From Dunaliella salina (taxonomy: Eukaryota; Chlorophyta; Chlorophyceae; Chlamydomonadales; Dunaliellaceae), in the NCBI GenBank assembly GCA_002284615.2, contig MU070117.1:19897-83896 (forward strand): a stretch of DNA of 64,000 nucleotides, written 5' to 3'. The notes under the pieces were generated by a model that saw only the letters and a list, made by a program, of their open reading frames with translations, was not told where the DNA came from and searched no databases. Of this stretch, positions 20,374-63,831 are shown one piece after another (the stretch's first letter is position 1; each line of letters opens with the position of its first letter). The position numbers were made by a program, and so were the translations under genes.

Positions 20374-20937
20374 TTACTCCACCATTTCAGCAAACTCTCG
20401 TTCGAGTCTCCTTCTGCATACATAGTAACTTGGATTACTCACGCATGTCCTCCAAGCTATTTGGATTTTCTTGGATGCATCACACATCTCTTTGTAAAAT
20501 TCTAACCTTAAACTCTTATCCAAACTTTTCATTGTATCCGGTAGGTAGCTACGCGTACATTCTATTATTGAGTTTATTGTGTCAATTGACACTTCGGTGT
20601 ACCACCACAAGAAACCGTTGATCATACTTATAAATATTTGCGACATTATACAATTCTTTAACAGTTTCATTGTTCCCAATTTATTTGGCCCAAGTCCTTG
20701 AGTGATTATACTCTCAAGATCTTTGGCACAAGAATCTTCATCCAATTCACCATCAACGATCTTCATGCCAAGACCCTCTAGGTACGTTTTAACTTTGTCA
20801 TAGATTTTATTTACCTTCTCATCTATCACTTGTTCACACACATTAATTGAATAATGCTCGTTGTTTTTTGGAGATGGATCATTTGCACATATGTAAAGAA
20901 GTTCATGAACATTTTCAGCCAGGTGTAAGAGTGCCAT
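20374..20937 (-). CDS. Stand-alone copy of the GIY-YIG protein C-terminal helical domain
   Basis: 187 aa. The C-terminus IQIAWRTCVSNPSYYVCRRR then LEREFAEM matches the end of the 442-aa GIY-YIG protein at 11699-13027 (same W, SNP-Y, C-R-L-REF spacing), and the preceding region shows a similar helical pattern. The GIY-YIG domain itself is absent, so it is either a domain spun off by duplication or a truncated gene. A 21-bp GC-rich insertion (20538-20558, bounded by GTAT and GTAC) is translated in frame within it. Confidence 0.5.
   Translation of the reverse strand: MALLHLAENVHELLYICANDPSPKNNEHYSINVCEQVIDEKVNKIYDKVKTYLEGLGMKIVDGELDEDSCAKDLESIITQGLGPNKLGTMKLLKNCIMSQIFISMINGFLWWYTEVSIDTINSIIECTRSYLPDTMKSLDKSLRLEFYKEMCDASKKIQIAWRTCVSNPSYYVCRRRLEREFAEMVE
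20538..20558. repeat. GTAC-bounded microelement, 21 bp
   Basis: Lies between GTAT (20534-20537) and GTAC (its own last four bases). Structure: CC-GGTA-GG, then TA, then GC-TAC-GC, then GTAC. It matches the two-hairpin plan of the microelements at 47774-47793 and 61955-61974. Confidence 0.6.
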
Positions 20938-22027: not shown

Positions 22028-22974
22028 TCATTGTAGCAAAGTATTGATTGCACTTTGGCCTAAATAGTATGCTAATCTACAAGGAATCGCATTTCCTATC
22101 TGCATTATTACTTCTTTGTTATTTCCAACAAGCACAAAATCGTCAGGAAATGATTGTATACGTTTTAGTTCCAGCGGTGTCAAGCGTCTTACACATGTTT
22201 CATCATATTTTACTAAAGCATCATAACCATCTTTGTAATATCGTGCAGGTATTGTGTACGACGGTTTGTCCATATCAAGATATTGTGCACCAAAGCCCTC
22301 ATTCTTTCTTTTTTTACTCGTATACCAATCAGTGCTTTTTCAGACAAATAATATCGACTATCAATTTCTTTTCTTGGAAGCAACACTTCTTTTACAAGAA
22401 TATGTTCTTGTTTTTCAAGAATAGGTGATATAAAGTCACGCAAACTTTCACTCATTTTTAAGTCTTTGTGAATACCAACTATTATTACTCGGTTTCGATT
22501 TTGCGGTACTTCATAATCAGAAGCACAAACTTTGTGAATCTGACAATCATATTTTTTTCCTAATTGCTCCATGATAATGTTTATTGATTTCTCGGAATTC
22601 TCTGTTTTCATAGAGAGAATGCCTAGGACATTCTCCATCATAAATAACTTGGGTTCATGATAATTCAAATATTCACAAAAATGCATAAACAATGAACTCC
22701 TTGGATCTTTCTTATCACGCCTACCTGCCATACTAAATCCACAACATGGTGGACCACCAACCAAAATATCGATTCTTTTATTCTCAAACATATCATTCAA
22801 CTTTTCCGGACCAAATGTTGATAAATCTGCACAAATTGCAAGATCATTAAAATTTTGTTTATAACTTTCAATTGCTTTATCCCATACGTCAATGGCGGCA
22901 ATGACATTTATTCCAGAGTCTTTTAATCCTTGGGAAAAACCTCCACAACCGCAAAACAAATCAATTGCATTCAT
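22028..22974 (-). pseudogene. DNA cytosine-5 methyltransferase 1, one frameshift
   Basis: The N-terminal frame (22213-22974) has motif I IDLFCGCGGFSQGL, motif IV GGPPCCGFSMAGRR with the catalytic Cys, motif VI MMENVLG and motif VIII VPQNRNRVIIVGI. The C-terminal frame (22028-22310) has YTIPARYYKD, motif IX LTPLELKRIQSFPDDF and motif X VGNNKEVIMQIGNAIPCRLA. The two join by a single-base shift in a T run at about 22308-22315, giving about 315 aa, normal for a monofunctional C5-MTase. All catalytic motifs are intact, so the break is either recent or an error in a homopolymer. The short target recognition region suggests a small recognition site. Confidence 0.9.
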
Positions 22975-22980
22975 GTTTTT

Positions 22981-24060
22981 TGTAAGGTTTTATTATTTAG
23001 GTCTTTATATCTTTTCGATTTTTTATTTTGTGACAAAATTGAAGCACTAAAGAGTGCAAACAAAAAAAAGTTGAAATTTCCATAGCAATTGCCCCACCCT
23101 CATCGCAACTGCCCATGGCATCTTTGAGTTTTCTTTCTTGCAACTTCGCCTATAGGACAATGTCATGTGCCGACACTGCCTTTCGAGACATTTTCCTTAT
23201 AGCCGGTAGGTAGCAGCGCGTAGCCTCATCAAATACAATAATAAAAAAGGTAGTTTCGGATCATACACTACCAGAAACAATCCAAATTTCATTACTTTTG
23301 TTTTCCTATAAATAGTGCATGCTGGTAATCTAGGATTTTACCACTCAATCAACTAATCCCAATTTCATTCTTTGGTTTGTTTCCCTTTTTAAACTAGGGA
23401 TCGCGAAGCTCCCTCCGTTTTAGAGGGAATTTAGAACAGACAGATATTAAATTTTTTGATGTGAAAAGGCTTTAACTGTTGTTTGTTCTTAATACCTTTT
23501 ATTATTTTTAAAGGATATTAAGTATAAAACTAAATTATATAAGATGAAGAAACATATAACAATTAGGGGAGGTATTAAATATCCTCATTCCAGTTCATTG
23601 CGATCGCTTAAGTGCGGCCTTTTCTTAAATGAAACAATGAATGTGGTATTTTAAGGCTACTTTATCAGGGAGTATTTACTCTTTTTCATTGCCTTAAAGA
23701 GTTTCTGAGAGCTATCTCCGGATCATATTATGAAGTATGAGACACTTTTTTTATAAAGTCCTTATTAGTTTTTAAACTTTTAAGGATTTAAACGAGCTTC
23801 AATCTTTGTATTCACTAAAATCCTTTCATCTGACTTCACCTATCACTCAATTGTGAATGATTAAAAAACAACTCAATAAAAACCATTTGCAAATCGCATT
23901 TGAAAACCAATGCATTTAAAACCATGAAGAATTTTGTAAATTTTAGACCTTTGGATCCAAAACAAAATTCAAAAATTGAAAAAAAAGAAAAAAATTGATT
24001 CAATTTATCCTTCAATTGCTTAAATAATCCTTCAACAAACATCGCACTTCAGTCTTCTAT
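22981..24060. other. ~1 kb AT-rich non-coding region
   Basis: No supported gene. It contains a plus-strand AAAATTGAAGCACTAAAGAG motif (23032-23053) with no gene behind it, a GC-rich CCGGTAGG-TA-GCAGCGC microelement-like piece (23203-23222), GGGATCGCGAAGCTCCCTCC at about 23398, and a 90-bp stretch repeated at 26131-26225. Confidence 0.5.
23329..23420. repeat. Dispersed ~90-bp repeat, copy 1
   Basis: Similar to 26138-26228: both hold CAATTTCATTCTTTG, a TTTGTTTCCC stretch, TTTTAAACTAGGG and then a GATCGCGRAGCT GC-rich end. Confidence 0.65.
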
Positions 24061-26611: not shown

Positions 26612-26711
26612 GATATCTTCCTTTCAGGCTGGCTCCACCTTGCACGGTTGGCAGCTTCCATGTCACCCCGCACATGCAGGCAAATCTTATCTTTAATATC
26701 AATCAATTTTA

Positions 26712-28442
26712 TCATTCTAATAAATCATTTTCATGTAAAAAACGTATGATATTTGGATGACCATTATTTATTGCACTATCCATTGCCTTTTTTGTACATC
26801 TTTCTGAACGATTATCGTGTAAAAAGATTACGATATCCAAATGACCGTTTTGTGCTGCATTATCCATCGCCCGTGTCGTACATCCTTCCGAACGATTTTT
26901 GTGTAAAAAACGTACAATATCCAAATGACCGTTTTGTGCTGCATCATCCATCGCATTAGTCGTACATCCTTCCGAACGATTTTCGTGTAAAAAACGTACA
27001 ATATCCAAATGACCGTTTTGTGCTGCATTATCCATTGCCCATGTTGTACATCCTTCGGAACGATTTTTGTGTAAAAACCGTATAATGTTTAAATCACCAG
27101 TCTCTGCTGCACTATCCATTGCCCATGTCGTGCATCCTTCTGAGCGATTTTCGTGTAAAAATTGCAAGATGTCTATATGACCGTACCATGCTGCACTATC
27201 CATTGCCCATGTTGTGCATCCTTCGGAACGATTTTTGTGTAAAAATTGCACGACGTCTCTATGACCATACCATGATGCACCATCTATGGCCTTTTTCGTA
27301 CATCCTTCGGAACGATTTTCGTGTAAAAATAAAACGATATCAAAATGACCATGCCACGCTGCATTATCCATCGCATTCTTCGTACATCCTTCCGAACGAT
27401 TCTCGTGTAAAAATCTTACAATTTCTAAATGACCAAAAGATGCTGCATTATTCATTGCATTCGTCGTACATCCTTCCGAGCGATTTTCGTGTAAAAATTT
27501 TATAATTTCTAAATGACCAAAACATGCTGCATTATCCATCGCATTCGTCGTACATCCTTCCGAGCGATTTTCTTGTAAAAAAAGCACAATATTTAAATGA
27601 CCATGCACCGCTGCATTATCCATCGCATTCGTCGTGCATCCTTCCAAGCGATTTTCGTGTAAAAAGCGCAAAATGTCCAAATGACCATGCCACGCTGCAT
27701 TATCCATCGCATTTGTCGTGCATCCTTCCGAGCGATTTTCGTGTAAAAAGCGCAAAATGTCCAAATGACCATGCCACGCTGCATTATCCATAGCATTCGT
27801 TGTACATCTTTCCGAGCGAATTTCGTGAAAAAATCGCACGACGTCTAAATGACCATTTCTTGCTGCATTATCCATTGCTCTTGTCGTGCATTTTTCCGTG
27901 CGATTCTCGTGGAAAAAACGTATGATATCCAAATGACCATTCTGTGCTGCATTGTCTATAGCGCATGTTGTACATTTTTTAGAATGATTCTCGTGTAAGA
28001 AGCGTACGATGTTTAAGTGACCATACTCAACGGCTGGATCGATTATGCTATTAATAGTACTATTATTTATAGTATTAATATCATGATCATGGAGCCATAT
28101 TATAGTCGAATAAAATCCTGATTTAATAAATTCATACATATTTTTATACTCTATATATTTTGGTAACTCGTTTCTTTTCGCTAACCATTCCAACGTACAT
28201 ATCAAAGCGTTCTCATCTTTTATACAAGATGAAATTTTGTTCATAAATGCATTTACATATATATTATTGTTTTTGATTTTGTACCAATGATCAATGTCCG
28301 GCAATTGAACGTTTTTCATTTCGTCTCTAAAAATTTTATTTACTTGACGGATTAAAAGTGTTTCAGTTCTATCATCTAAATATAAATATTTAATAATCTT
28401 CTCCTGTAAATCCCATGGAAGATTACAAAATGGAAACTCCAT
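26712..28442 (-). CDS. F-box-like ankyrin-repeat protein
   Basis: 576 aa. Residues 1-45 (PFCNLPWDLQEKIIKYLYL) look like an F-box. After a variable ~100-residue region come about 16 repeats of 28 residues with the pattern NRSEGCTTNAMDNAAWHGHL plus DIVRFLHE. This repeat class is abundant in mimivirus-like genomes and some protists; F-box-ankyrin proteins often recruit targets to SCF ubiquitin ligases. Adjacent units at about 27655-27790 are nearly identical at DNA level, indicating recent expansion or gene conversion. The frame is intact throughout. Confidence 0.85.
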   Translation of the reverse strand: MEFPFCNLPWDLQEKIIKYLYLDDRTETLLIRQVNKIFRDEMKNVQLPDIDHWYKIKNNNIYVNAFMNKISSCIKDENALICTLEWLAKRNELPKYIEYKNMYEFIKSGFYSTIIWLHDHDINTINNSTINSIIDPAVEYGHLNIVRFLHENHSKKCTTCAIDNAAQNGHLDIIRFFHENRTEKCTTRAMDNAARNGHLDVVRFFHEIRSERCTTNAMDNAAWHGHLDILRFLHENRSEGCTTNAMDNAAWHGHLDILRFLHENRLEGCTTNAMDNAAVHGHLNIVLFLQENRSEGCTTNAMDNAACFGHLEIIKFLHENRSEGCTTNAMNNAASFGHLEIVRFLHENRSEGCTKNAMDNAAWHGHFDIVLFLHENRSEGCTKKAIDGASWYGHRDVVQFLHKNRSEGCTTWAMDSAAWYGHIDILQFLHENRSEGCTTWAMDSAAETGDLNIIRFLHKNRSEGCTTWAMDNAAQNGHLDIVRFLHENRSEGCTTNAMDDAAQNGHLDIVRFLHKNRSEGCTTRAMDNAAQNGHLDIVIFLHDNRSERCTKKAMDSAINNGHPNIIRFLHENDLLE

Positions 28443-31428: not shown

Positions 31429-32412
31429 ATGTCTATTATGAGATATTTATCTTTATTTTCGGGAATAGGAGGATTTGAAGTAGCAATTCATCAAGTATTT
31501 GGTGATAAAGCAGAATGTGTTGGCTATTCAGAAATTGATAAACATGCAATAGCAGAGTATGAAAGTCATTATCCTAACCATGTCAATCTTGGAGATATAA
31601 CAAAATTAAAGAAGAATGACATAGATTCACTAGATAAGATAGATTTAATAGTTGGAGGTTTTCCTTGCAGTGACTTATCAAGTGCTAATGATCAAAATAG
31701 AAAAGGCTTAAATGGCCAAAAATCAGGATTGTTTTGGATAATGTGTAATGTAATAATGTGGGCGAGAACACAAAATCCAAATTTACAAATAATAATAGAA
31801 AATAATGCAAGTATGGCACATAAATGGCGTGACATGATAACAAATAAATTGTGCATAGTTCTCAAGCAGACTCTATATTGTAACTTTTTTGATTCAAGTC
31901 AATGGGTAATGCAGAGACGCAGGCGTTACTATTGGACACTTAAACAAATACCTGAATATTACGGTACTCGAAAGCAATCCATGAATGATGTACTAGTACC
32001 TATAAATGAAGCAAAACAATATAAGTTGAAAGCAAATGCAATCATGTTTTTGAATTCATCACCTCCGCATTTACATGGGTACAAGGGGGAAATCATCAGC
32101 ATAAAAGGCTCTTGTTACAAAAAAAAATCAGTAGAATACCCAACCCGCCTTAGTAATTTTGGTTATTCTACAACCCTTGATGACTATGTGAAATGTTTGG
32201 TAACAAGATACCAATCATGTTTTTTGCTAGATTACCGGCTGTGCTCTAGAGAACATATGTTTATTCCTCGATATTTAGCCAAATCAGAATTCAATAGATT
32301 GTTTGGATATCCTGAAAATTACGTGTACACAAATCGTAACTCAGTATACGCTCGTTTATATGGTATGACTGTTGTTCCGCCCGTAGTTAAGCATATTCTA
32401 CTTAATTTGTAA
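31429..32412 (+). CDS. DNA cytosine-5 methyltransferase 2
   Basis: 327 aa, intact; the start is the ATG at 31429 or at 31438 (MRYLSLFSGIGGFE). Motif I LSLFSGIGGFE, motif IV VGGFPCSDLSSAN with catalytic Cys, motif VI IIIENNASM (ENN instead of the usual ENV), motif VIII VMQRRRRYYWT, motif IX AKSEFNRLFGYPENY and motif X RLYGMTVVPPVVKHIL are all present. The FPCSDLS form is seen in NCLDV and phage enzymes. Its stop codon overlaps by 15 bp the 3' end of the convergent helicase gene, as expected in compact viral genomes. Together with the helicase it lies between 245-bp direct repeats. Confidence 0.9.
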   Translation: MSIMRYLSLFSGIGGFEVAIHQVFGDKAECVGYSEIDKHAIAEYESHYPNHVNLGDITKLKKNDIDSLDKIDLIVGGFPCSDLSSANDQNRKGLNGQKSGLFWIMCNVIMWARTQNPNLQIIIENNASMAHKWRDMITNKLCIVLKQTLYCNFFDSSQWVMQRRRRYYWTLKQIPEYYGTRKQSMNDVLVPINEAKQYKLKANAIMFLNSSPPHLHGYKGEIISIKGSCYKKKSVEYPTRLSNFGYSTTLDDYVKCLVTRYQSCFLLDYRLCSREHMFIPRYLAKSEFNRLFGYPENYVYTNRNSVYARLYGMTVVPPVVKHILLNL

Positions 32413-34938: not shown

Positions 34939-35068
34939 GTAAACAAATGGATGAAAAGCATTGTGTATAATTTTTTTCTTTTTTTGTTTATTAAGTGTCC
35001 TTTTAGTTAAAAGGAAAATGTGTCAAAAAGATGCAAGTTTGTGCAATATGTTGCAAATTTATGTTAAT
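34939..35068. repeat. ~130-bp direct repeat left of Fanzor copy 1
   Basis: From GTAAACAAATGGATGAAAAG to TTGCAAATTTATGTTAAT, nearly identical to 36912-37043 apart from T-run lengths and one substitution. The pair brackets the Fanzor element at distances of about 30 bp (left) and 37 bp (right). Confidence 0.95.
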
Positions 35069-35142
35069 GGTATACTAAAGTTTGATGCTCTTTTGAAAGG
35101 CTTTAACAGTTAATTGATTTATTCAATGATATTTAAGGAAAT

Positions 35143-35259: not shown

Positions 35260-36653
35260 TTGAGCAGTCAATCTTGGTTCTCCTTGAAGCAATGGAAAAG
35301 CTCAGACCTTCAAAAAGAAAAAGTAAGGGGTAAGACAAAAATCAAGGATATAGATAAAGAGAAAAAGGAAAAGAAACGAGGCAATAGTTTAAGGAAGTCC
35401 AAAAAACCACCAGCTAACTATTCTAAAAAAATCAAGCTACAGCCAAAGAAAGAAGATGCCCAAACTTTCAATCAATGGTTTGGTTGTTGTAGACTAACCT
35501 ACAATTGGGCTTTGTCATGTATCAAGAAAAAACCAAAGGAATACAAAATGACGGACATAGTTTGGCTAAGAAAACGTTTCATCAACAAATGTAACATACC
35601 GAAAGATAGACAATATCTCCTTGGCACTCCAAAGGAAATTAGGGATAGTGCTTTGAGTGACCTAGCCCAAGCTTACAAGACCAACTTTGCTGTTAGAAAG
35701 AAAGACCCTAGTCACACCTTTGACATCGAGTTTAGGAAGAAAAAGGACAATCAAAGCATCACGTTGGGTTATCAAAATGGAATAAAATTGTGGGACACTC
35801 AGCAACAAGAAATGAAGATGTACCCAACGTATTTACAAAATAAAATCAACTTTCACATCCGGAAAAACCGAAGCCTTCCTGAGAAACTTGAGAACGATTG
35901 TAAACTCACCAAAGACAAGTTAGGAAGGTACTACTTGATCATCGTTTATCACCGAGTAGCCTGTGATGATCAAACAGGCAAAAAAGGGAATGAATGGTGC
36001 TCAATAGACCCTGGAGTGAGAACAATGTTAACAATCTATAGTAGTTCAAATGGCCTAGCTTACAAAGTAGGAGAGAACGACATGACAAGGATATTTAGGC
36101 TTTGTAAATGTTTAGACAAACTAATATCTAGGATGAATAATATTAAACGTAAGTTTAGAAGGAAAAAGTATAACATAAGAGAAAGAATCAAAAACCTAGT
36201 AACAGAAGTACACTGCAAGGCAGTACGTCTACTAGTCACCAACTTTAACAATGTCATCATTCCTCCTTTTAACGTTAGCCAAATGACAAAGCGTTCGAAC
36301 AGAAAGATAAACAGTAAGTCGGTTAGGGGAATGTTATGTTGGAGACACTTTGCCTTTCGACAACGTCTACTACAAACAGCCCAAAGGTATAACGTTAACG
36401 TATTTGTAAGAGGCGAAGAATACACTAGTAAAACGTGTACGCCAACAAAGTTGGCCTAGGCGCTTCGCGCGTACGGGCTTTGCCCTAGCGCTCCGCGCGT
36501 ACAAATTGTAGGACAATCAAAGAAAATTTAGGAGGGGCCAAAGACTACAGATGTTCTCACTGTGGGCTATTAGGTGACCGAGACCTTTGTGCAGCAAGGA
36601 ATATCCTTTTAAAAAATGTGTTTGGGCCTAAGCCCAAAAGTCGATTAGACTAG
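35260..36653 (+). pseudogene. Fanzor2-like (IS607 TnpB/OrfB) RNA-guided nuclease, interrupted in the zinc ribbon
   Basis: The frame 35260-36459 encodes about 400 aa of a TnpB-family protein: the N-terminal OrfB helix-turn-helix region (FNQWFGCCRLTYNWALSCIK), RuvC-I WCSIDPGVRTMLTIYS with catalytic Asp, and RuvC-II region NVIIPPFNVSQM where the usual Glu of PEF is Pro. It then stops in a 62-bp insertion (36441-36502). Removing that insertion restores T-C-T-N-C followed by YRCSHCGLLGDRDLCAARNI, i.e. the CxxC...CxxC zinc ribbon and RuvC-III Asp, ending at TAG 36651-36653. No in-frame ATG is present near the start; homology extends upstream to about 35215, so the start is unsettled (TTG, lost ATG or an upstream exon). 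Confidence 0.85.
36441..36502. repeat. Two GTAC-bounded double-hairpin microelements (34 + 28 bp)
   Basis: Inserted after GTAC at 36437-36440, with GTAC again at 36471-36474 and 36499-36502. The first unit is GCCAAC-AAA-GTTGGC, CTAG, GCGC-TTC-GCGC, GTAC. The second is GGGC-TTT-GCCC, TA, GCGC-TCC-GCGC, GTAC. Excising all 62 bp leaves one GTAC and restores the Fanzor zinc ribbon. The same pair occupies the same site in copy 2 (47488-47549). Confidence 0.9.
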
Positions 36654-36874
36654 GCGATGCTACGCTCGGCCTTTGGCTTGTCTTTCAGTAGACAGTCAAT
36701 GAAAACTTTGCCCTTTGGATTGCCTTAGCATGTTAGAAGTGTTCTGAAAGAAGCTACGCGTTCGTTGGGCTACATGGGCAACAACGTATAACGGCACGGA
36801 AGATGGTGCAAGGTGAAGAGAAGAAGGGTCAATATTGAGCTAACACTCAATAAAGTTAAAGTTTAAAAGAGCGG
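36654..36874 (+). ncRNA. Candidate Fanzor guide RNA (fRNA/omega-RNA) region
   Basis: About 220 bp between the Fanzor stop and the element's right end. It is conserved in copy 2 (47101-47345, minus) and copy 3 (60795-61105) although it has no ORF. It contains GC-rich hairpin-forming stretches such as GCGATGCTACGCTCGGCC and ends in AAAGTTTAAAAGAGCGG. In TnpB/Fanzor systems the guide RNA comes from the gene's 3' end, the element end forms the scaffold, and the flanking DNA gives the guide. Position and conservation fit; transcription is not shown. Confidence 0.45.
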
Positions 36875-36911
36875 TAAATGATTTACACATTATTAATAAG
36901 AAAAGAAGATT

Positions 36912-37043
36912 GTAAACAAATGGATGAAAAGCATTGTGTATAATTTTTTTTCTTTTTTTTGTTTATAAAGTGTCCTTTTAGTTAAAAGGAAAATGTGTCA
37001 AAAAGATGCAAGTTTGTGCAATATGTTGCAAATTTATGTTAAT
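36912..37043. repeat. ~130-bp direct repeat right of Fanzor copy 1
   Basis: Partner of 34939-35068, same orientation. Confidence 0.95.
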
Positions 37044-37434
37044 TTGTGTACATGGCAGCTGAAATCATCGCCGGTCGAGTGGCGAAAATGGAATCGGCAT
37101 TTTAGGAAGCACGTTGCCTGCCCCAAACTAAACCGCAATTCGCTATAAAATGGGTTGCGTGCAGCAACCACAGCAACAGACCAATGTTCTTCCGCTCATT
37201 GGAATCGGAATGGAAGACATCAAATTCAAACCATTGATTCAAGCAACATTCCCAAAAGTGTGCTAGGCGAGGCAATACTACGCTCAGACACAAAATATAA
37301 AAATTAAAAACCCATGAGCGGCGGAACGTGGACTTTACTTGTCCTAGGGCCTCTAGATCTAGCCCCCCCCCCGTTCCAGGTGCACTAAAAAGCTGGCTTC
37401 AAGAAGCATCCGATGGTGTCTTCCAATCACGATT
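37044..37434. other. Non-coding spacer with a Fanzor 3' relic
   Basis: No supported ORF. TGCTAGGCGAGGCAATACTA then CGCTCAGAC at about 37261 resembles the start of the conserved Fanzor 3' region (CTAGGCGATGCTACGCTCGG). A C homopolymer lies at about 37363. Confidence 0.4.
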
Positions 37435-38988: not shown

Positions 38989-39335
38989 ATGGCTTATATT
39001 ATTATGAATGATGAAGTCTTGTACGCTGCCGTTGGCAGCTTAGGCGCACAGCGCGTACACACCTAAACAACTCGCCAAAACATTCAACGTCACCAACAAA
39101 ACCCTCGCACAATGGGAAAAATCCAGAAAGATCAAAGCCAAGAAAACCAAAGGAGGTCATCGAAGATACATCTGTACACCACCAATCATTCCCAGTAGCG
39201 ATGAAAAACAATCCATTATATATACAAGAGTCTCTTTTGCAAAACAAAAAAATGACCTTGAAAGACAAACTCAATTCCTACAATCCCATTTCCCAAACTA
39301 TACCGTCATCCAAGACGTTGGGATCGTGACAGTTT
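38989..39335 (+). pseudogene. IS607-family serine recombinase (TnpA), truncated and interrupted
   Basis: From the ATG at 38989 (MAYIIMNDEVL) the frame is broken by a 34-bp microelement (39025-39058); without it the MerR-like DNA-binding domain reads YTPKQLAKTFNVTNKTLAQW and TKGGHRRYI. The serine recombinase domain then begins IIYTRVSFAKQKNDLERQTQ with the catalytic Ser in the RVS motif, and stops being recognisable after VIQDVG at about 39330. About half of the recombinase is lost. IS607 TnpA uses this Ser to insert elements at GG dinucleotides and is the partner expected for the Fanzor copies here. Confidence 0.85.
39025..39058. repeat. GTAC-bounded double-hairpin microelement, 34 bp
   Basis: GCTGCC-GTT-GGCAGC, TTAG, GCGC-ACA-GCGC, GTAC, placed after GTAC at 39021-39024. 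Removing it restores the recombinase frame (L-Y-T-P-K-Q-L-A). Same length and plan as the first unit at 36441, but the stems have different, still fully paired sequences. Confidence 0.9.
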
Positions 39336-39951: not shown

Positions 39952-40642
39952 TTGATGAATTTATGCTTTGAGAAAAACTTATGGAAGAAAGAAGAACGTA
40001 ATGAAACTTTGGGTACAAAATACATTATAACTGTGAGAATAGATGGAAAATAATAAATTGGATTTGTTTAGGCAAGCTGTTAGTTTTAATGCTTTCTAAT
40101 CTTTGAATTCTAATTCTTCATTTTTTGGTAAACATACTTTTTATTGGTGTTATAATTGTTGGCTTGGTGGGTTTGGGCTGCCCATGCTATGCTTACAATA
40201 CACACTTCAAGGGTATATATTGCTTGGCCTCCTTTGTTCTGGACATGGGTTAAAGGGGGGATTTACAAGCTTGAAGCCAGGGTGGCTAGAATCCGAGTAA
40301 GGAGGTCTCTTACAATTGGAAGGCCCATCTGCGGAATGTGTTTGCTATTTATAACTTGATAAACATGCAAAAGCAGAGTACGCAAGGCTGTTTATATGTA
40401 AAAAAGCATAATGTCTCCAACACACACATACTTTCAATCCTTATATGTTTTTAAATACTGGAACAATTTTTTGGTCTTCAAATAAGTTTATTATCAACTT
40501 TTTAACCAATACCACTCTATTTTCCACATCTTTGAATTTCAGATGCACATATGCATATTGCAATTAAGGGGGATATAAGTTTATTTGTATATTGAAATTC
40601 AATTTTGTAGATTTTTTGTATAAATTGCAAAAGAATAAAATA

Positions 40643-42403
40643 ATGTCAGCTTCTAGACGTATTAGACAAATTATAAATGGAGATGAGCTACAAGATAAAT
40701 ATGTGGCAACCGCGATGCAAGATTTAAATGCTTTGGACGAAGCTGGAAAACCCGAGTCAACTTCCAGACATTATCCAAAATTTTTTCCTTATACTAATCC
40801 AGACTTAAATGCTCCTGGTGGAGCTGCAAATGCTAAATTTCTTCATTTTTCAAATGATAAAAAATTCATTCGTGTCGTAAATAAAACAACAAATGTGACA
40901 ACTTATATCAATAAAAAGCCCCTCCTAATTCAGCAAGATAGTGAAACTTCTTTCATGCTAAAAAACGATAGTTTTGTTGGCCATTATGATTGGCTACACG
41001 TTGAACATCCAATAACTGGCAGTACAAATGCATTGGTTGAAACTTTAGTTGGTTATGTTGAAGATGAAACAAATTTATATGTAAATGACGGAACAATGAA
41101 AAACTTGATCGATATTAAAAATAATTTTCGTTCAATTTCTATTCAGCACATGCAAAATCTTGTCATTCCTGAGATAACTGAAGACACTTATTTAGAAAAT
41201 GACAACTTAGAAAATGTTGAGTACAATGAAAAAGAAAAAGGCTTTGTCATGAAATGTCTTGGTGCATATGAAACTGTGCGGCAGTCAAGATATACGATCC
41301 CATATACTCAAATGTCAGATTTGCTTATACTACAACAAGCTAAACTGAAACACATGGAAGAAAACCTTGATTATAGTGCACGTGTAGGTTACTTTGATGA
41401 AGAAGTTCGTGCTGTATACAATAACAAAGAAGAAAGAGAAATGACAAAGTTTGGTGCTTTTTTTGAATATATGTCTGATCCGAGTGGAAACCAAACTGGT
41501 TTTTACATAAATGTTTGGTTTCTGCCATATGATACACCTCGCCAACCAAAAATTGCACAAAATAATTGGAATCTTGATCGTTTAGATGGCACAGGACCAA
41601 GTGGATTAATTTTGAATGCAGATGATATGAACACCTTTGCCGTTCATTGGATGCCGCATGCAAATAAAATAATATTTGGTATTATGAAAAAAAACCACAT
41701 TATACGCTGTCATGAGCATGAAAATCTCGTGCCTGACTCTGATCCTCCTCATAGGATGCTACCTCCCCACCTCTATTCAAAAAAGGGCCAATTCAATGGC
41801 TCATTGAGATGGGAGCTCACATCAAGAAATGAAGACCCTCCTTCTCCCAATGCTACAATGATTCAAGGCTCTGCAATCGTATTTAGTGATGAAAAATATA
41901 AAGAAAATCAAAAATTACTTGAATACAATACTGATTTGCATTCTTTAGAGTTAAATAGACAATATGAACAAAAACCTGCTTTTGTTTTGAGGTTAAAAGA
42001 GAGAAATAATAGGGCAAAATTTTGGCCAAAAAGCATTTCATTGCTTCAAATAATTGAAGGGGCTATTGTAAAATGGGAATTAGTCCTTAATGCTGAATTA
42101 AGTAATGGGGAAAATGAAATCCAATGGGTAAATAAAGCAGGTTCTTTATTACAAATTGCTCCCCGGATGAACAACGTTAACAATTTAGATTATACACTTC
42201 TTAATGAAAGCTTGGCATGTAAGAATGGATCAATTATTGCTTCTGGGTATATTCACGGCAGTGGTCGCTTTTCTTTTGACGTTGATAAGTTTAATGCCTA
42301 TGTAACATCATCGATAAGGGGAGAATTAGAAACATTGACACTGAAATTAACGAATGTTCATGGTGTAGCTGAAATAATTTCTAAAATTGAATGGTGTGAA
42401 TAG
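40643..42403 (+). CDS. Large unknown protein, possible virion structural component
   Basis: 586 aa from the ATG at 40643 (MSASRRIRQIINGDELQDKY); an in-frame upstream codon at 40592 gives 603 aa but lies in the AT-rich leader. Intact, no signal peptide or membrane segment. The N-terminal 60 residues look like a conserved anchor. Around residues 250-370 a strand-rich stretch (FGAFFEYMSDPSGNQTGFYI, NVWFLPYDTPRQ, then WMPHANKIIFGIMKKNHI) resembles concanavalin/LamG-type beta-sandwiches by strand and turn pattern. The C-terminal 150 residues are also strand-rich. I do not recognise the family; a virion surface or fibre protein is only a guess from size and fold pattern. Confidence 0.5.
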   Translation: MSASRRIRQIINGDELQDKYVATAMQDLNALDEAGKPESTSRHYPKFFPYTNPDLNAPGGAANAKFLHFSNDKKFIRVVNKTTNVTTYINKKPLLIQQDSETSFMLKNDSFVGHYDWLHVEHPITGSTNALVETLVGYVEDETNLYVNDGTMKNLIDIKNNFRSISIQHMQNLVIPEITEDTYLENDNLENVEYNEKEKGFVMKCLGAYETVRQSRYTIPYTQMSDLLILQQAKLKHMEENLDYSARVGYFDEEVRAVYNNKEEREMTKFGAFFEYMSDPSGNQTGFYINVWFLPYDTPRQPKIAQNNWNLDRLDGTGPSGLILNADDMNTFAVHWMPHANKIIFGIMKKNHIIRCHEHENLVPDSDPPHRMLPPHLYSKKGQFNGSLRWELTSRNEDPPSPNATMIQGSAIVFSDEKYKENQKLLEYNTDLHSLELNRQYEQKPAFVLRLKERNNRAKFWPKSISLLQIIEGAIVKWELVLNAELSNGENEIQWVNKAGSLLQIAPRMNNVNNLDYTLLNESLACKNGSIIASGYIHGSGRFSFDVDKFNAYVTSSIRGELETLTLKLTNVHGVAEIISKIEWCE

Positions 42404-46246: not shown

Positions 46247-47100
46247 ATGACACAACCTAACCTGCAGCAGCATGCAGAGGCTTCTCCGGAACTGCTACGC
46301 TGTGATGACGTTTTAGGCAAGATATACAATAGCTGTGATGACGCGGAAACCAGGAAAGCGCTACGTGTGTCATGCACTACATGTTCCAGGTGCTGTAGCC
46401 GCAGGCAGCTTCGCGTAGCGCATCAATGCAATAGCCTTCACAGCAGCATCGCGGGCAGACCCACACTTGATATGTTCTTCTTTTGTGTTTTCAGGTCACC
46501 TGCCATCAATTCCTTGGTAATAGGGCGTCACATGACAAGCCACGATTTTTTGGGTGTCCTGGTCTCTTTCCCCCGGCTAGCTCAGATTAAGCACCTGGTC
46601 TTCTATCGGCAAGATGTGGGGCGTCTATTTTTGTCATTTCTGGGACCACAAGGAACAGTTGCACTGCCCAGGCTCACGAGCGTGACCACCCTCAAGCTCA
46701 TTGTAAGTTTTCATTCCCATGCCACAACTGTCACATGCCGACAATAATGCCTGTTCTTTTTTTAAATGCATCACAGGGTTGTGAACTGGATTCTTCCCTT
46801 GCTAATGTGCTTGCTTTTCAAATGCAGCAACTCACAGAGCTGAGGCTAAAAACTTATTTTTTACCAGATGATCTAAAAGCTTTCGCACACTTTGGGAAAG
46901 GCCTCAAGACATTGACTTTGTGCAACGTAAAGACTCCAGGTTACATGACATCGGAATACCTCTGTGGCAATCAGCTACAGCTGAAAAAGCTCTTTATATC
47001 ATCTCCAAAGTGGGTGACTGGTCTGGATAGGTGCCTTGCATGCCACCCCCTTCAAGATCTTCAAATGTGTAATGTTTTACTTTTGACCGCTCTCAAGAAC
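46247..47100 (+). pseudogene. Host LRR-type gene, 5' part (exons before the Fanzor insertion)
   Basis: The frame begins at the ATG at 46247 and has leucine-rich repeat spacing (LTELRLKTYFLPDDL, LKTLTLCNVK, LKKLFISSPKW). A canonical intron with GTAAGT donor and CACAG acceptor lies at 46703-46776 (74 bp, phase 0), joining TTLKLI to GCELDSSL. A further acceptor-like TTTTCAG is at about 46494, and one (CTGCAG) precedes the ATG, so more exons are likely. The coding sequence is cut at 47100 by the minus-strand Fanzor element and resumes at 48914. F-box/LRR-like organisation is suggested, but no F-box is seen. Confidence 0.6.
46703..46776 (+). other. Spliceosomal intron
   Basis: GTAAGTTTTC donor, T-rich tract and CATCACAG acceptor; phase 0. 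The intron itself contains stops in the coding frame, and splicing joins two LRR-like stretches. Confidence 0.75.
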
Positions 47101-47487
47101 CGCTCTTTTAAACTTTAACTTTTTTGAGTGTTACCTCAACAATGAACGCGTAGCTTCCTTCGGAACCCTTCTTCTCTTTACCTTGCACCATCTTCCGTGC
47201 CGTTATACGTTGTTGCTCATGTAGCCCAACGAACGCGTAGCTTCTTTCAGAACACTTCAAACATGCAAAGGCAATCCAAAGGGCAAAGTATTCATTGACC
47301 GTCTATTGAAAGACAAGCCAAAGGCCGAGCGTAGCATCGCCTAGTCTAATCAACTTTTGGGCTTAGGCCCAAACACATTTTTTAAGAGGCGCTGCACAAA
47401 GGTCTCGGTCACCCAATAGTCCACAGTGAGAACATCTATAGTCTTTGGCCCCTCCTAAATTTTCTTTGATCGTCCTACAATTTGTAC

Positions 47488-47549
47488 GCGCAGAGCGCTA
47501 GGGCAAAGCCCGTACGCGCGAAGCGCCTAGGCCAACTTTGTTGGCGTAC
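47488..47549. repeat. Two GTAC-bounded microelements, same site as in copy 1
   Basis: Reverse complement of the pair at 36441-36502 with two or three substitutions (for example GCGC-TCT-GCGC instead of GCGC-TCC-GCGC). GTAC is at 47484-47487, 47512-47515 and 47546-47549. The shared site shows the insertion predates the split of the two Fanzor copies. Confidence 0.9.
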
Positions 47550-47773
47550 ACGTCTTACTAGTGTATTCTTCGCCTCTTACAAACACGTTCACATTGTACC
47601 TTTTAGCTGCCTGTAACAGACGTTGTCTAAAAGCATAATGTCTCCAACACAGCATTCCTCTTACTGACTTAGCGCTTATTTTTCTGTTCAAACGCTTTGT
47701 CATTTGGCTAACATTAAATGGAGGGAAAAAATTATATTTTTTTCTGTCAAAGTTTGTTACCAAAAGACGTACG

Positions 47774-47793
47774 CGCAGCTACCTTCGGGTACA
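47774..47793. repeat. GTAC-bounded microelement, 20 bp, only in copy 2
   Basis: On the element's strand: CC-GAA-GG, TA, GC-TGC-GC, GTAC, inserted after GTAC within the codons for KAVR. Copy 1 has the uninterrupted GTACGTCTACTAG at 36222-36234, an empty site. Confidence 0.9.
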
Positions 47794-49657: not shown

Positions 49658-51006
49658 AGCTGAGCATGCGCGCACAGTGTTACACCCTTTTTTCAGCCAT
49701 TCAAGTGCAACGTTTTATATTCAATGCTCAACAAGGGGAAGCCGCTTTCAAATCGATAGAAGTGGCAAGCCACTTAATTTTTTAAAAGCAAGCCGTTTTG
49801 CACCATGTGGGACATGCAGTGACAAGGCTAATGTATTTACATTATACATGATTTTACAACCCGCCAAAAGCACCAGCCATGTTACCCACTGCTTGTATGT
49901 CATCTTTCGCCAAAGAAACTACCACTTTAACTTCACCATGCAGACAGATGGGGTGGGTGTCAGCCTTCTCTTTATCCATAAGAATTATAATGGAAGAAAG
50001 TCATGTCCATCCTGCTCTACAGACGATACCTATCCATTCTACTATATTCAAGAACTACACCATCATCAATTAGAAAGCCTACAAGGTAAAAACATTGTGG
50101 GCCTGGAAAATATGATTTATTGTATATGACAGACAAAAATGGTAACAGATTGCGTTACACAGCTTTCCAAAGAAAGACTGAGAGCATGAGTAAGAGAAAT
50201 CACCGCATACTTGTTGCCGAAAAACAGAGGAAATGAATTATTGAGAAGGAAACCACACTATCTAACCAAAACAGCAAACTGATTCGGTTAAATCCACTCA
50301 CCAGTGCAGCGGCCATGTACACCCCCAGGAACATGGAGCAGAAGGTAGCATGGGCTTGCGCACTACACCTCTACCAATCCAAGGGTAAAACAGCTCCAAG
50401 TAAGTACCTCACCACCCCACATTCACCTTTGCAGCGGTTTGCAGCGGTGGACACACACACACCTGCACTTGTATCCGTAAACAGGCCTCAAGGTGGAGGC
50501 GCTGTCCCGCTCTGCTTTAGATGAGCTGGAGGCCAAGAGTGAGGGGAATAACAATGCGCGCACCTTGCACACCGTCCCCCTTTTTGAAAGGTCTGCTTTG
50601 ATCAAAAGTGTTCACAAATTTTGAAACACTCAGCAGCTTATTGTAACTTATCTTTTAAATGAGAGCAGTATGGTAAGGGCTCGAGAATGCAGCTCCTTGC
50701 TGTGAAAAAGGGGGACGGTGCCCTTAGCAAAGCAAAGTGCCGTTTAAAAGTTACCACCGAAAAGTGGTGACCCGGTAGGCAGCAAAGCTGACTGCATTTA
50801 TGCTGGTTTATCCAGCATTTTTGCGAGTCTGATGGAAGCAAGCTATGACTGGACAACCTTGCACACAGGTTTACATGCTTCATGACAGCATCGCCTGCCC
50901 TTGAAGCAAAATACATGCTATCACACCGAGCCTCAAAGGGCGCTTAACAAGGCGTGTGCGCACGTTCGCCGCAACAAGAGGAGTCCAGAACAAAATAGGA
51001 GGCAAT
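49658..51006. other. Non-coding host-type DNA
   Basis: Short open frames on both strands but none with domain-like content. CCGGTAGGCAGCAAAGCTG at about 50772 resembles the GC-rich microelements. Nothing else assigned. Confidence 0.35.
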
Positions 51007-53812: not shown

Positions 53813-55818
53813 ATGGAAAAACAAAGAAAACCTCCTGACAAAAATAAACCATTTTATCAGTGCATAAAAACAAGCCTAAAAAGTGTTGCAAGAAATGATC
53901 ATGTTATTGATAAACTACAAGAAACCGCTCGTAGAGCTAATGATATTGTCATTCATACACTTCACATGATTAGACTTTATATTTATGATACAAATGCACC
54001 TATCCCCACATTGAATAGACAGTTTATTACATCTGTTATGAAAGTATTGTGTGAAGGAAAAAAAGACAACCGTGGAAAAGCACCAAATGAAGAAACGCGA
54101 CACATAAAAGAAAGATTACATATTTTTTATGAAGCACATTACAAGTCTTTTGTTTTACATCATTTAGACTATCAACATATGAACACAGTTTTGGATTACT
54201 TATCAACAGACATCATTACCATGTACGAAAATAACATTAAACAACATTTTGTTGAATATGTTGAACGCTTTGTGAATGTGTCTTGGGGTAGAAAAGACTT
54301 GATCGCTATTATCAATAAAAGGAAGTGCATAACACGTCGTCATCAAGCAAAAAACTCTTTATGTGCGCAGTTACGAAAAGTTAAGAATGACCTTTTGAAC
54401 CCCCACAAGCCAAAGACATCACACCCTCTTTATCACTATTGGATCGAAGAGCACACACACAAAGTTCTACCTCAAAAGAATTTCAAAGAAGACAACGTTG
54501 TCTATGATATCCAATGCTCCCCTCAAGATTATCTATCTTGTATGATGTACATGATGAAAACAGTCGAGTCTTTTGGAGCAACAATAAACAACGTTTGTCC
54601 TTTGAAAAGTGATGTTATACCCAAACATTTTAGGTTAGACACAATCTCTCTTATCAACTTATGTTTTACTTCAAGTGAGGGGAAAAGAAGTGACTATACA
54701 ACAAAGGGTAATCTTGTTAAGTATCAAGACAAGATATGGGGAATTTTCTTCAAGACACATTTGAAATGTTTTCATATGAAAGATGATGAACAACATACAC
54801 ATGGTTTTGACCATCAAATTGAGACTGATGGTGTGAGTTGTAGTATCATTCTTAAACGAAAAGATTTGATCAATAAACGAGTGCGTCAACCAAAGGCCAA
54901 GAAAGGTGCAAACACTGAATACTACATTGATGAATTAGAAGACTATACCATACTTCAAAGTAAACAAGTAGTAGCCATAGATCCTGGTTTTTTCGGACTT
55001 GTTATATTGTGTGAACAGTGACACAAAAGAACAAGTTAAATTTAGATATTCTCAGGATTTGAGGCGTAAGGAGACCAAAACAAAAAAATACAGGAACTGT
55101 TTACAACAAGAAAAGAAAGCAACAACAGTTGAAGGTAAAACCATTCCAGAGTGGGAGTCTGAATTATGTCGATTCAATCGCAAGACTTTGAACTTTGAAG
55201 AATTCAAAAAGTATATTCAAAAGAAAAATGATGTCAATAGTAAACTTTCACCTTTTTATGACAAGTATTTATTCAGGAAATTGAAATTAGGAAGTTATGC
55301 AAGAAGGCAAGTTACAGAATCACGGATGCTTTCTCGCTTTGAAAAAATGTTTGGGTCTCCAGATAAAACTATAATTGCCATAGGAGATTTTGAACAACAA
55401 AAACATATAAAGTACAAAGAACCAGTGAAAGGGAAAGGATTTAGACAAACCTTTCGCAAAGCAGGATATCATGTGTACTTAGTAGATGAATTTAGGACAA
55501 GCTGTAGTTGTAGTGCTTGTGGAGGAGAATGTAAGAAATTTAGAGCCTCGACCTTATAAAAATGGTAGAAATCTGAGACATGGTTTATTGGTGTGCCAAC
55601 ATTGTAATAAGCTATGGAACAGAGATACCAATGGTGCTTCGAATATTTGGAAGATATCAATCAATGCAATAAATCGATTATCAAGACCGTCCTATTTGCA
55701 AAGATCCCATGGATCAATCAGTGATGCTACGTCGGTATCACACAATCATGATTTACACGGTTTCCCTTTAGGAAAGCCTTGTGCGAAGCACAACGGTATG
55801 CAAAGACCAAACGTTTGA
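53813..55818 (+). pseudogene. Fanzor1-like RNA-guided nuclease, two frameshifts
   Basis: Three frames form one protein of about 660 aa. Frame 1 (53813-55021) covers the helical N-terminus, GFDHQIETDGVSCSIILKR and RuvC-I VVAIDPG. A one-base shift in the T run just after DPG (about 54988) continues as LLYCVNSDTKEQVKF, through TIIAIGDFEQQKHIKYKEP to VDEFRTSCSCSACGGECKKF. A second shift near 55540 leads to LEPRPY, then HGLLVCQHCNKLWNRDTNGA with the second CxxC and RuvC-III Asp. All catalytic and zinc residues survive. It is only distantly related to the IS607-type copies at 35 and 47 kb. Stops at the breaks are TGA and TAA. Confidence 0.8.
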
Positions 55819-55850
55819 CATTTTAAATGCTGAACGGTGTAAAACTATAA
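55720..55850 (+). ncRNA. Candidate Fanzor1 guide-RNA / element 3' end
   Basis: The last coding bases and about 30 bp beyond are repeated at 58205-58325 although most of it there cannot be coding: GATTTACACGGTTTCCCT, GGAAAGCCTTGTGC, AAGCACAACGGTATG and GACATTTTAAATGCT. GGTTTCCCTTTAGGAAAGCC and TTGTGCGAAGCACAA form two neighbouring hairpins; in the second copy the first loop is longer but the stem is kept. A structured, conserved 3' end overlapping the ORF end fits known TnpB/Fanzor guide RNAs. Confidence 0.4.
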
Positions 55851-60689: not shown

Positions 60690-61105
60690 TGAGAAAATTT
60701 AGGAGGGGCTAAAGATTACAGATGTTCTCACTGTGGGCTATTAGGTGCTTTGTGCAGCAAGGAATATCCTCTTAAAAAATGTGTTTGGGCCTAAGCCCAA
60801 AAGTCGCTTAGACTAGGCGATGCTACCAGCTTTCAGCTGGCTAGCAGGCCTTGCATGCTACGCTCGGCCTTTGGCTTGTCTTTGACGGTCAATGAAAACT
60901 TTGCCCTTTGGATTGCCTTTGCATGTTGGAAGTGTTCTGAAAGAAGCTCTGCGTTCGTTGGGCTAAATGGGCAACAACGTATAACTGCACGGAAGATGGG
61001 TCGGGCTTTGCCCTTAGCGCTCCGCTTGCTTGCCAAGTGCAAGGTGAAGAGAATAAGGGTCAATATTGGGGTAACACTCAATAAAGTTAAAGTTTAAAAG
61101 AGCGG
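60690..61105 (+). mobile_element. Fanzor/IS607 element, copy 3, 3' fragment
   Basis: Begins inside the zinc ribbon (GAAAATTTAGGAGGGGCTAA; YRCSHCGLLG readable) and runs through the conserved 3' region to AAAGTTTAAAAGAGCGG at 61105. It carries two private insertions relative to copy 1: a 35-bp hairpin element at 60827-60861 and a GGGC-TTT-GCCC, TTA, GCGCTCCGC piece at about 61007-61032. It lies just upstream (on the gene's strand) of the D27 exon, presumably in an intron. Confidence 0.85.
60827..60861. repeat. Double-hairpin microelement variant, 35 bp
   Basis: Inserted after GCTAC: (C)CAGCT-TTC-AGCTG(G), CTA, GCA-ggcctt-GC/ATGC, TAC. Copy 1 has the uninterrupted GATGCTACGCTCGG at 36656-36669. 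Confidence 0.75.
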
Positions 61106-61525: not shown

Positions 61526-61889
61526 ACTCCTGGCCATGAGGTCGCTGCGTTCAGGGTCTGGGCTACACAGGGATAGTTTCAGCACAGAAAATGAGTTGAT
61601 TTAAAGTGATGACACTGATTGACGGCGCAGGAGTGGAAAGTTGGCACAGTGGAAATGGTGCTCAGAGGTGATCTCATCTTGGGTCTGCATTACTACGTGC
61701 TCACCTTTTAGCTACAACCCCAACCGTCAAAAACATATTTTTGCGCTGATCTCAGGCCTGCCCTCAGATACTCTGTGAAGCACCATACTATGCTAGCTTG
61801 CTCTTTTCTGGTGAACTGCTCTGTTCACGCAAATCCTGATTTGATCTGTACACATCTCATCATTGCAGGCTATGCCGATGGCGGCGTAC

Positions 61890-61974
61890 GGGCTTTGCCC
61901 TTAGCGCTCCGCGCGTACCCGCAGGTAGCTTTGCCCTTAGCGCTCTGCGCGTACCCACAGGTAGCTCCGCGTAC
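61890..61974. repeat. Cluster of three GTAC-bounded microelements
   Basis: GTAC boundaries at 61886-61889, 61915-61918, 61951-61954 and 61971-61974 delimit units of 29, 36 and 20 bp. Unit 1: GGGC-TTT-GCCC, TTA, GCGC-TCC-GCGC, GTAC. Unit 2: CC-GCA-GG, TA, GC-TTT-GC, CCTTA, GCGC-TCT-GCGC, GTAC. Unit 3: CC-ACA-GG, TA, GC-TCC-GC, GTAC. Confidence 0.9.
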
Positions 61975-63692: not shown

Positions 63693-63769
63693 GATGTAGC
63701 TCCACTGATTAGGGCGCAGCCCTTTTGAGTTCCTCTGGTGCTTCCATTACCCTCCAGAGTTTCTTGTAC

Positions 63770-63831
63770 GCGCCACAGGCGCCTAGCGCTTTGCGCATAC
63801 GGCTGCGCTTAAGCCGCCAAAGGCGGCGTAC
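63770..63831. repeat. Two microelements between GTAC boundaries
   Basis: Between GTAC at 63766-63769 and 63828-63831. Unit 1 (31 bp): GCGCC-ACA-GGCGC, CTA, GCGC-TTT-GCGC, ending ATAC. Unit 2 (31 bp): GGCT-gcgctta-AGCC, GCC-AAA-GGC, ending GGCGTAC. Confidence 0.85.

Follow-up and report, generated by a model that had tools for sequence, protein, structure and literature searches.

Short double-hairpin units inserted at GTAC and related tetramers in Fanzor- and IS607-bearing DNA of Dunaliella salina

Two adjacent short hairpins characterise the double-hairpin elements (DHEs) of Allomyces and other fungal mitochondrial genomes, which are thought to be mobile (PMC5910586, PMC7218506, PMC2800124). 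The GC clusters of yeast mitochondria, as described for GC42, are likewise short hairpin DNA with direct repeats (AG or ACT) at their ends, and they merge and are shuffled (PMC4478555). In bacteria, REP and BIME sequences with RAYT or TnpA-REP, and the ends of IS200/IS605 elements, are described as carrying a tetramer beside a hairpin, many 2-3-nt loops and paired hairpins, and the tetramer can guide the cut dinucleotide (PMC3733652, PMC8266576). Palindromic DNA within genes is reported for the Rickettsia palindromic elements (RPEs) (PMC3733652), short palindromes thought to be selfish, with copies in nuclear DNA, for the green alga Volvox (PMC2670323), and palindromic, MITE-like repeats that often adjoin each other for the giant virus Pithovirus (M1/M2; PMC10664404). 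Here we analyse a stretch of 64,000 nucleotides from Dunaliella salina (C682:19897-83896; called the window throughout), in which a sequence-only reading had pointed to a family of GTAC-bounded units of two hairpins that insert into genes. We find that these units are real, were mobile in the past, are structurally conserved and are not restricted to GTAC.

The assembly comprises 284.9 Mb in 1403 contigs, and the units lie on C682 (159.7 kb) and C1055 (71.6 kb), of which the readable (unmasked) parts were scanned. A unit consists of a boundary tetramer, a hairpin, a linker of 2-4 nt, a second hairpin and again the boundary tetramer, both hairpins being GC-rich. At site S_B in a Fanzor gene (36437-36502) this plan occurs twice, as GTAC, GCCAAC-AAA-GTTGGC, CTAG, GCGC-TTC-GCGC, GTAC, GGGC-TTT-GCCC, TA, GCGC-TCC-GCGC and GTAC, with the middle GTAC common to both units. 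A strict scan for such GTAC-bounded units (core ≤50 nt) returned 8 in the window against a mean of 0.05 and a maximum of 2 in 40 block-wise dinucleotide shuffles, and 6 against 0 when stronger stems were required; GTAC itself is commoner in the window (172 sites) than in the shuffles (124), and some sites lie within an 84-bp coding repeat. Together with a composite unit (61915-61954) and a two-unit array (63766-63831) the window holds 11 units, which agrees with the earlier count of at least ten on one plan, though several of them represent one insertion seen in paralogous Fanzor copies. The units of the window, including those with other boundaries treated below, are:

36437-36474, + strand: GTAC unit 1 at S_B, Fanzor copy 1 (strict scan)
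36471-36502, + strand: GTAC unit 2 at S_B, Fanzor copy 1, GTAC in common with unit 1 (strict scan)
39021-39058, + strand: GTAC unit at S_D in an IS607-type tnpA gene (empty paralog C682:157453-157456; MerR domain downstream)
47484-47549, - strand: two-unit array at S_B, Fanzor copy 2, as in copy 1 (scan and alignment)
47769-47792, - strand: 16-nt-core GTAC unit at S_A, Fanzor copy 2 (scan and alignment)
61886-61974, + strand: array of a GTAC unit, a composite unit and a 16-nt-core GTAC unit
63766-63831, + strand: two-unit array with inner boundary ATAC (empty GTAC at C1055:58203-58206)
46395-46418, + strand: GTAG-bounded 16-nt unit, linker CA
50768-50792, + strand: TGAC-bounded 17-nt unit, linker CA
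20534-20558, + strand: GTAT/GTAC-bounded 17-nt unit, linker TA
23199-23223, + strand: ATAG/GTAG-bounded 17-nt unit, linker TA

When one mismatch was allowed, both contigs together gave 24 GTAC matches, where 20 shuffles averaged 0.5; the score used rewards loops of 3 nt, stems rich in GC and TA as linker. Two of these matches (C682:46774 and 46858), which lie in a coding tandem repeat and have AT-rich stems without a TA linker, were discarded, and the 22 retained units include inherited copies at the same site. Their cores measure 16-34 nt and their strand-merged linkers are CTAG (7), TA (7), TAA (3), CTAA (2), CTA (2) and TCGA (1). Substituting each of the 15 other palindromic tetramers for GTAC gave 0 to 13 matches, and per occurrence GTAC ranks top (24 per 495), followed by CTAG (9 per 372). 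TA-linked GC-rich double hairpins sought with unconstrained flanks matched at 21 places, with exact GTAC on both sides in 10. Composite units exist, and identical cores recur in unrelated places, such as CCGAAGG-TA-GC at S_A and at C682:143962, or the GCCAAC hairpins in four contexts.

The boundary is not always GTAC, since a sister set of units with cores of 16-17 nt is bounded by TGAC, GTTC or GTAG. A scan that accepted any tetramer as long as both sides carried the same one, and that required a C-G loop-closing pair except for 2-bp stems with 4-nt loops, gave 29 places against 0 to 4 in 10 shuffles: 15 GTAC, 6 TGAC (4 and 2 on the two strands), 2 GTTC, 1 GTAG, 1 CTAG and 4 apparent chance matches. 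The two contigs contain 74 cores built as CC-loop-GG-NN-GC-loop-GC, of which 13 have identical flanks and 14 have flanks with one mismatch; with shuffled right flanks the values are 2.8 and 7.3, and the observed sum was reached in 0 of 2000 shuffles. For comparison, 1364 such cores in 2.38 Mb of IMG/VR loci include 8 with identical and 77 with one-mismatch flanks. Three of the 27 flank-matched cores (C682:23065, 83703 and 121147) were set aside as apparent chance matches, which leaves 24 units of the 16-17-nt class. GTAC and TGAC predominate, a GTAG-type boundary is found at 2 sites, and subfamilies of units keep their own boundary. A left GGAC with a right TGAC is seen at two independent sites.

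Paralogs of the flanks were sought for 29 loci, and 9 have a counterpart with a single copy of the boundary and no unit. At S_D the occupied site has GTAC on both sides and the empty counterpart reads ATAC; at the array 63766-63831 both are GTAC; S_C is empty, with GTAC, in Fanzor copy 2, and S_F is empty, with GTCA, in copies 1 and 2. The array at C682:148216, C1055:24758 (counterpart at window 55816-55819) and C1055:71418 each have an empty TGAC, and the array at C1055:45297, occupied with GTAC, has an empty GTAA. At C682:128829 the occupied boundaries differ (GTCA and GTCG) and the empty site is GTCG (CGAC on the other strand), which suggests that three boundary letters can suffice. Among the remaining loci, 7 have occupied partners only, 11 have no partner, one (C1055:28554, GTTC) has a partner ATTC with a shifted gap, and S_A is a locus for which the flank search gave an occupied partner only, but the Fanzor alignment shows it without a unit in copy 1 and with one in copies 2 and 4, making it the tenth empty-site case. 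The empty sites of the window are:

36223-36226, + strand: empty S_A site (single GTAC), Fanzor copy 1 (alignment of Fanzor copies)
35721-35724, + strand: empty TGAC site S_F, Fanzor copy 1 (occupied in copy 4, C682:115394-115418)
47596-47599, - strand: empty GTAC site S_C, Fanzor copy 2 (occupied in copy 4, C682:114663-114719)
55816-55819, + strand: empty TGAC site (matches occupied C1055:24754-24778)

These nine loci and S_A establish the units as insertions with direct repeats of 3-4 bp, as the sequence-only reading had proposed. Its further proposal, that GTAC acts as target or duplicated site, stands as far as short direct repeats accompany the insertions; GTAC does not define the boundary, as TGAC, GTTC and GTAG occur and the empty target at one site is GTCG, and it is thus one target among several. 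That the paired sites are mostly found in Fanzor or IS607 genes follows from these genes having paralogs and has no bearing on a preference for them.

At S_B, excision had been claimed to restore the zinc ribbon of Fanzor. This holds, since the pieces on the left and right of the insert, translated apart, align to residues 251-549 and 550-588 of the relative P0001, where they adjoin. The two-unit array is present in Fanzor copies 1, 2 and 4, whereas C1055:28670 has a single unit whose first hairpin is that of the array and whose second is different, and C1055:71343, with flanks about 95% identical to those of 28670 (41 bases aligned), has a third combination of hairpins. Among the Fanzor copies on C682 and C1055 none is empty at S_B, although the protein relative does run straight through. 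Before S_B the ratio of non-synonymous to synonymous change (dN/dS) is 0.08-0.10 in four aligned Fanzor copies, all with S_B units, and copies 1 and 2 differ near S_B by 10 synonymous and 0 other changes in 47 codons. Within the array the same two copies differ at 1 of 65 aligned columns, far less than at the neighbouring synonymous sites, which argues, short of proof, that the array is probably younger than most of the divergence of the Fanzor genes. Their identity rises from 77-81% just before S_B to 95-97% in the 3' part, and exchange between Fanzor copies therefore probably carried the array. The inserts at S_B, S_A and S_D break the reading frame, as do further gaps in copies 2, 4 and 5. 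The 16-17-nt class divides evenly into 12 units with cores of 17 nt (21 nt including one boundary) and 12 with cores of 16 nt, which would break a frame. At C682:128829 the TGAC-type unit adds 7 residues cleanly to a Fanzor frame that is open over 595 aa, as comparison with an open frame on C1055 shows (589 aa, 88% identity). The frames concerned are:

35260-36459, + strand: Fanzor copy 1 reading frame, truncated by the S_B array
C682:128366-130153: open Fanzor frame, 595 aa, with the unit in frame; an overlapping frame starts like an IS607-type tnpA
C1055:20510-22279: open Fanzor frame, 589 aa; an overlapping frame starts like an IS607-type tnpA

As observations in their own right, gaps of 7-9 nt recur between the Fanzor copies in varied positions. 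A hairpin insert of similar look, adjoined by CTAG or CTAC and with ill-defined boundaries, lies near the Fanzor 3' end (window 60823-60857 compared with 36655; C682:114381; C1055:28473; C682:141.8k). A repeat of about 130-190 bp stands on both sides of Fanzor copy 1 (window 34940-35100 and 36873-37057) and in tandem at C682:125490-126629.

It is the structure rather than the sequence of the units that is conserved. Their stems vary, and in an alignment of five units 98% of the cells are paired, with changes on both sides in 3 of the 6 pairs of hairpin 1 and 0 of the 4 pairs of hairpin 2; sliding the partner by 1-3 columns lowers the pairing to 14-50%. MAFFT misaligned units of unequal stem length, and the covariance model, built from the five equal-stem units only, picks up further places such as C682:97320. 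Of 44 hairpins, 40 have a 3-nt loop, a length to which the score gives a mild preference. All 26 distinct hairpins (16 stems) have C-G as their loop-closing pair, while the remaining G/C pairs of the stems split 38 to 33; this count was made on the list of 22 GTAC units, where closure was no criterion, as the any-tetramer scan required C-G closure and therefore provides no evidence on it. GNA loops or their complement occur in 11 of the 26 hairpins against 4.0 expected by letter shuffling (p 3.5e-4), and (A/G)NA loops, a class defined post hoc, in 24 against 16.4 (p 6e-5), both p values being too small because related hairpins were counted as distinct. ANA loops behave much like GNA loops. The latter are described from DNA mini-hairpins whose stability is extraordinary and which contain a sheared G.A pair (PMC6479982).

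In the 16-17-nt class, the linker appears to be related to the boundary. The 24 retained units were merged by hand into 17 events, uncorrected for shared ancestry, and in these the linker is complementary to a dinucleotide within the boundary in 14 on the left flank and 15 on the right, against 5.9 and 7.2 with permuted linkers (p 5e-5). TA goes with GTAC, CA with TGAC and AA with GTTC, while GTAG is found with CA and GTAG/ATAG with TA. Two copies with the linker GA (C1055:16409 and C682:95025) were counted under their sites; taken separately, the latter would count against the rule. The relation recalls REP and IS200/IS605, where the tetramer adjoining the hairpin is described as pairing with and selecting the cut dinucleotide and where altering it retargets IS608 (PMC8266576). 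As the subfamilies share ancestry and the events are not independent, the relation is a lead and not a proof.

The reading that we favour, at a rough probability of one half, is that the units are ultra-short non-autonomous elements which were moved as folded single strands by an HUH-like enzyme acting in trans. The core of two GC-rich mini-hairpins would insert at a preferred tetramer, mostly GTAC and otherwise TGAC, GTTC or GTAG, and would leave a direct repeat of 3-4 bp. The moving form would be single-stranded DNA folded via its C-G-closed mini-loops, which a trans-acting enzyme similar to the HUH (Y1) transposases of REP and IS200/IS605 would cut and join at the boundary, possibly with the linker or the boundary serving as a short guide. 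Tandem arrays could then arise by reinsertion at a duplicated boundary, and hairpin modules could be shuffled by exchange between units. Several points weigh against it. No mover was found, and no Y1 transposase is among the 25 families listed, out of 65, for 95 reading frames; we know of none from algae or their viruses, and a target duplication is not known for IS200/IS605 insertions. The unequal boundaries and the empty GTCG/CGAC at C682:128829 are not what a strict tetramer enzyme predicts, one S_A copy has the linker GA with GTAC, outside the linker-boundary rule, and that rule is based on few related subfamilies. In its boldest form the proposal would make the units the smallest guide-directed mobile DNA, folded strands with cores of 16-34 nt whose linker dinucleotide or boundary tetramer pairs with the target (TA, CA and AA linkers leading to GTAC, TGAC and GTTC), carried by large algal DNA viruses and moved by an undescribed single-strand enzyme; we regard this extended version as unlikely.

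The main rival is template switching during replication, which we hold to be possible on a tentative footing. A strand ending in GTA(C) or GTC would anneal beside a unit elsewhere, copy it and switch back, with stable hairpins provoking the switch and no dedicated enzyme being needed. That each subfamily keeps its own boundary speaks for it, as do the composite units and the exchange between Fanzor copies shown by the identity jump. The empty CGAC and occupied CGAC...TGAC at C682:128829 are as expected if GAC alone matched, and the two further sites with GGAC on the left and TGAC on the right fit as well. However, two exact flank-to-flank switches are required per site, and the constant C-G closure is unexplained by template switching alone.

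Another DNA transposase or a site-specific endonuclease, for example a virus-type enzyme cutting GTAC, might instead open the target, into which double-stranded units are joined. A repeat of 4 bp is a normal footprint of such enzymes and GTAC is palindromic, and among the frames two match T5orf172, which we take to be of the GIY-YIG type, and three match a cytosine methylase. We nevertheless consider this improbable, as TGAC, GTTC and GTAG are non-palindromic, the 16 distinct stems provide no terminal inverted repeats common to the units, and a core of 16 nt offers little space for two bound subunits. Two specific movers were tried and rejected: the IS607 serine recombinase, since the sequence that Fanzor copies 1, 2 and 4 have in common reaches up to GAGCGG and suggests a GG core unlike the unit boundaries (presumably resembling that of bacterial IS607), and a TA-only duplication in the style of Tc1/mariner, which fails at the TGAC and GTTC sites.

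RPEs are known as in-frame peptide inserts, and mobile bypass elements are bypassed or removed. By analogy, the host gene might function despite its unit, with in-frame units read as a short peptide and others bypassed or removed, and the 7 residues of the 595-aa Fanzor frame that are absent from its 589-aa paralog, the 17-nt cores in half of the 16-17-nt class, and the low dN/dS and purely synonymous changes in S_B-bearing copies would all agree with it. This accounts for tolerance and not for movement, the reading frame is disrupted in the other half of the class and by the inserts at S_B, S_A and S_D, the array at S_B is probably younger than the divergence of copies 1 and 2, and copies 2, 4 and 5 have other frame-breaking gaps, so that it is very improbable. 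Least credible of all is a local origin of immobile hairpins by polymerase error, for although snap-back synthesis can yield hairpins, the same cores stand at unrelated places and the empty sites are clean.

Seven patterns searched in the whole 285 Mb assembly matched 5, 6, 4, 4, 3, 5 and 6 places, every one on C682 or C1055, against 0, 7, 1, 36, 0, 0 and 0 rows for the reversed patterns. For the second and the fourth the control rows equal or exceed those of the pattern (7 against 6 and 36 against 8), so that their number alone is no excess; all four places of the fourth pair as units and are on C682. The restriction to two contigs holds for the seven patterns used, whose counts are lower bounds that are blind to units with other stems and to masked stretches. 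Fanzor DNA is found on C682, C1055 and C1215, plus one short piece on C1, and several IS607-type tnpA and Fanzor genes lie on both C682 and C1055. C682 also carries an origin-binding-type helicase (PF02399), cytosine methylases and ankyrin repeats, and a retroelement near the start of the window, presumably Gypsy-like, has reverse transcriptase, RNase H and an integrase domain. The sole organism-named relative among 120 listed is P0039 from Dunaliella salina (54% identity) for the Fanzor protein and P0238, labelled 'Pyramimonas orientalis v', for the helicase; a 603-aa frame (40592-42403) has seven relatives, none informatively named. No capsid family is among the families listed for the frames of the contigs. 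Both contigs are rich in IS607 and Fanzor genes, and one has some virus-type genes; they may be called virus-like and no more than that. In IMG/VR, three patterns of the single-unit type matched 94, 91 and 82 loci, which, when inspected for full GTAC units, yielded a few weak non-family matches and no unit of this family and which look like chance by their context, mostly GC-rich contigs; a fourth matched 3 loci, with about three expected by chance on our own estimate, and a protein scan of IMG/VR for Fanzor confirmed none. Further observations on the contigs concern an ankyrin-like gene of 84-bp repeats (window 26643-28034), three C5 cytosine methylases (window 22213-22974 and 31429-32412, C682:121609), of which the last two start nearly alike, and, on C1055, two frames (13702 and 37444) that share their first 70 residues and a tnpA stretch present both at 42726 and at 69258, which indicate a large internal duplication or a matter of the assembly.

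With cores of 16-34 nt, the units fall in the smallest size range in which mobile DNA could be sought. How such elements move, a question that is also open for the fungal mitochondrial hairpins, can be tested directly through the paired sites, the rule of loop closure and the relation between linker and boundary. The literature searched, with most subscription journals outside that search, contained no description of such units. The likeness to DHEs, drawn by the sequence-only reading, extends to the two adjacent short hairpins and ends at the flanks, as PMC2800124 describes the fungal mitochondrial elements of Allomyces without flanking duplications, while the units here have direct repeats of 3-4 bp and a tetramer preference; judged from the Fanzor and IS607 genes that they carry, C682 and C1055 are also not fungal mitochondrial DNA. 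GC42 is described as a mitochondrial cluster of 42 nt in several identical copies (PMC4478555), whereas the stems here differ widely and AG or ACT repeats are absent. REP and BIME are bacterial and, in the accounts given, bounded by GTAG or CGTC (PMC3733652, PMC8266576), whereas the GTAG type occurs here at just 2 sites and the boundary is duplicated. RPEs are bacterial too, with CGTC reported at one end in R. conorii (PMC3733652); a single in-frame insert of 7 residues is seen here, and in the 16-17-nt class 12 of 24 units have a length that would disrupt a frame. The Volvox palindromes, as described, average about 50 nt with TAAA/ATTT loops and nuclear copies judged inert (PMC2670323), in contrast to two hairpins with 3-nt loops on two contigs, and the Pithovirus M1/M2 repeats, reported with inverted repeats of 54 and 47 bp, a putative TA target duplication and about 140 nt, are several times longer (PMC10664404). 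With MITEs and other transposons with terminal inverted repeats the units share a target-site duplication, but terminal inverted repeats common to the family are absent from their 16 distinct stems. RPEs, moreover, insert in frame, consist of a single palindrome and are larger. Since DHEs, yeast GC clusters, REP and BIME sequences, RPEs, and MITEs with other terminal-inverted-repeat transposons each fail in, or leave open, at least one feature, the units are filed under none of them and are a variant of small palindromic mobile DNA. Mobile DNA of such small size, with direct repeats and clean empty sites and apparently located neither in organelles nor in bacteria, would mean that the way of life of REP sequences and double hairpins extends to the DNA of eukaryotes or of their viruses.
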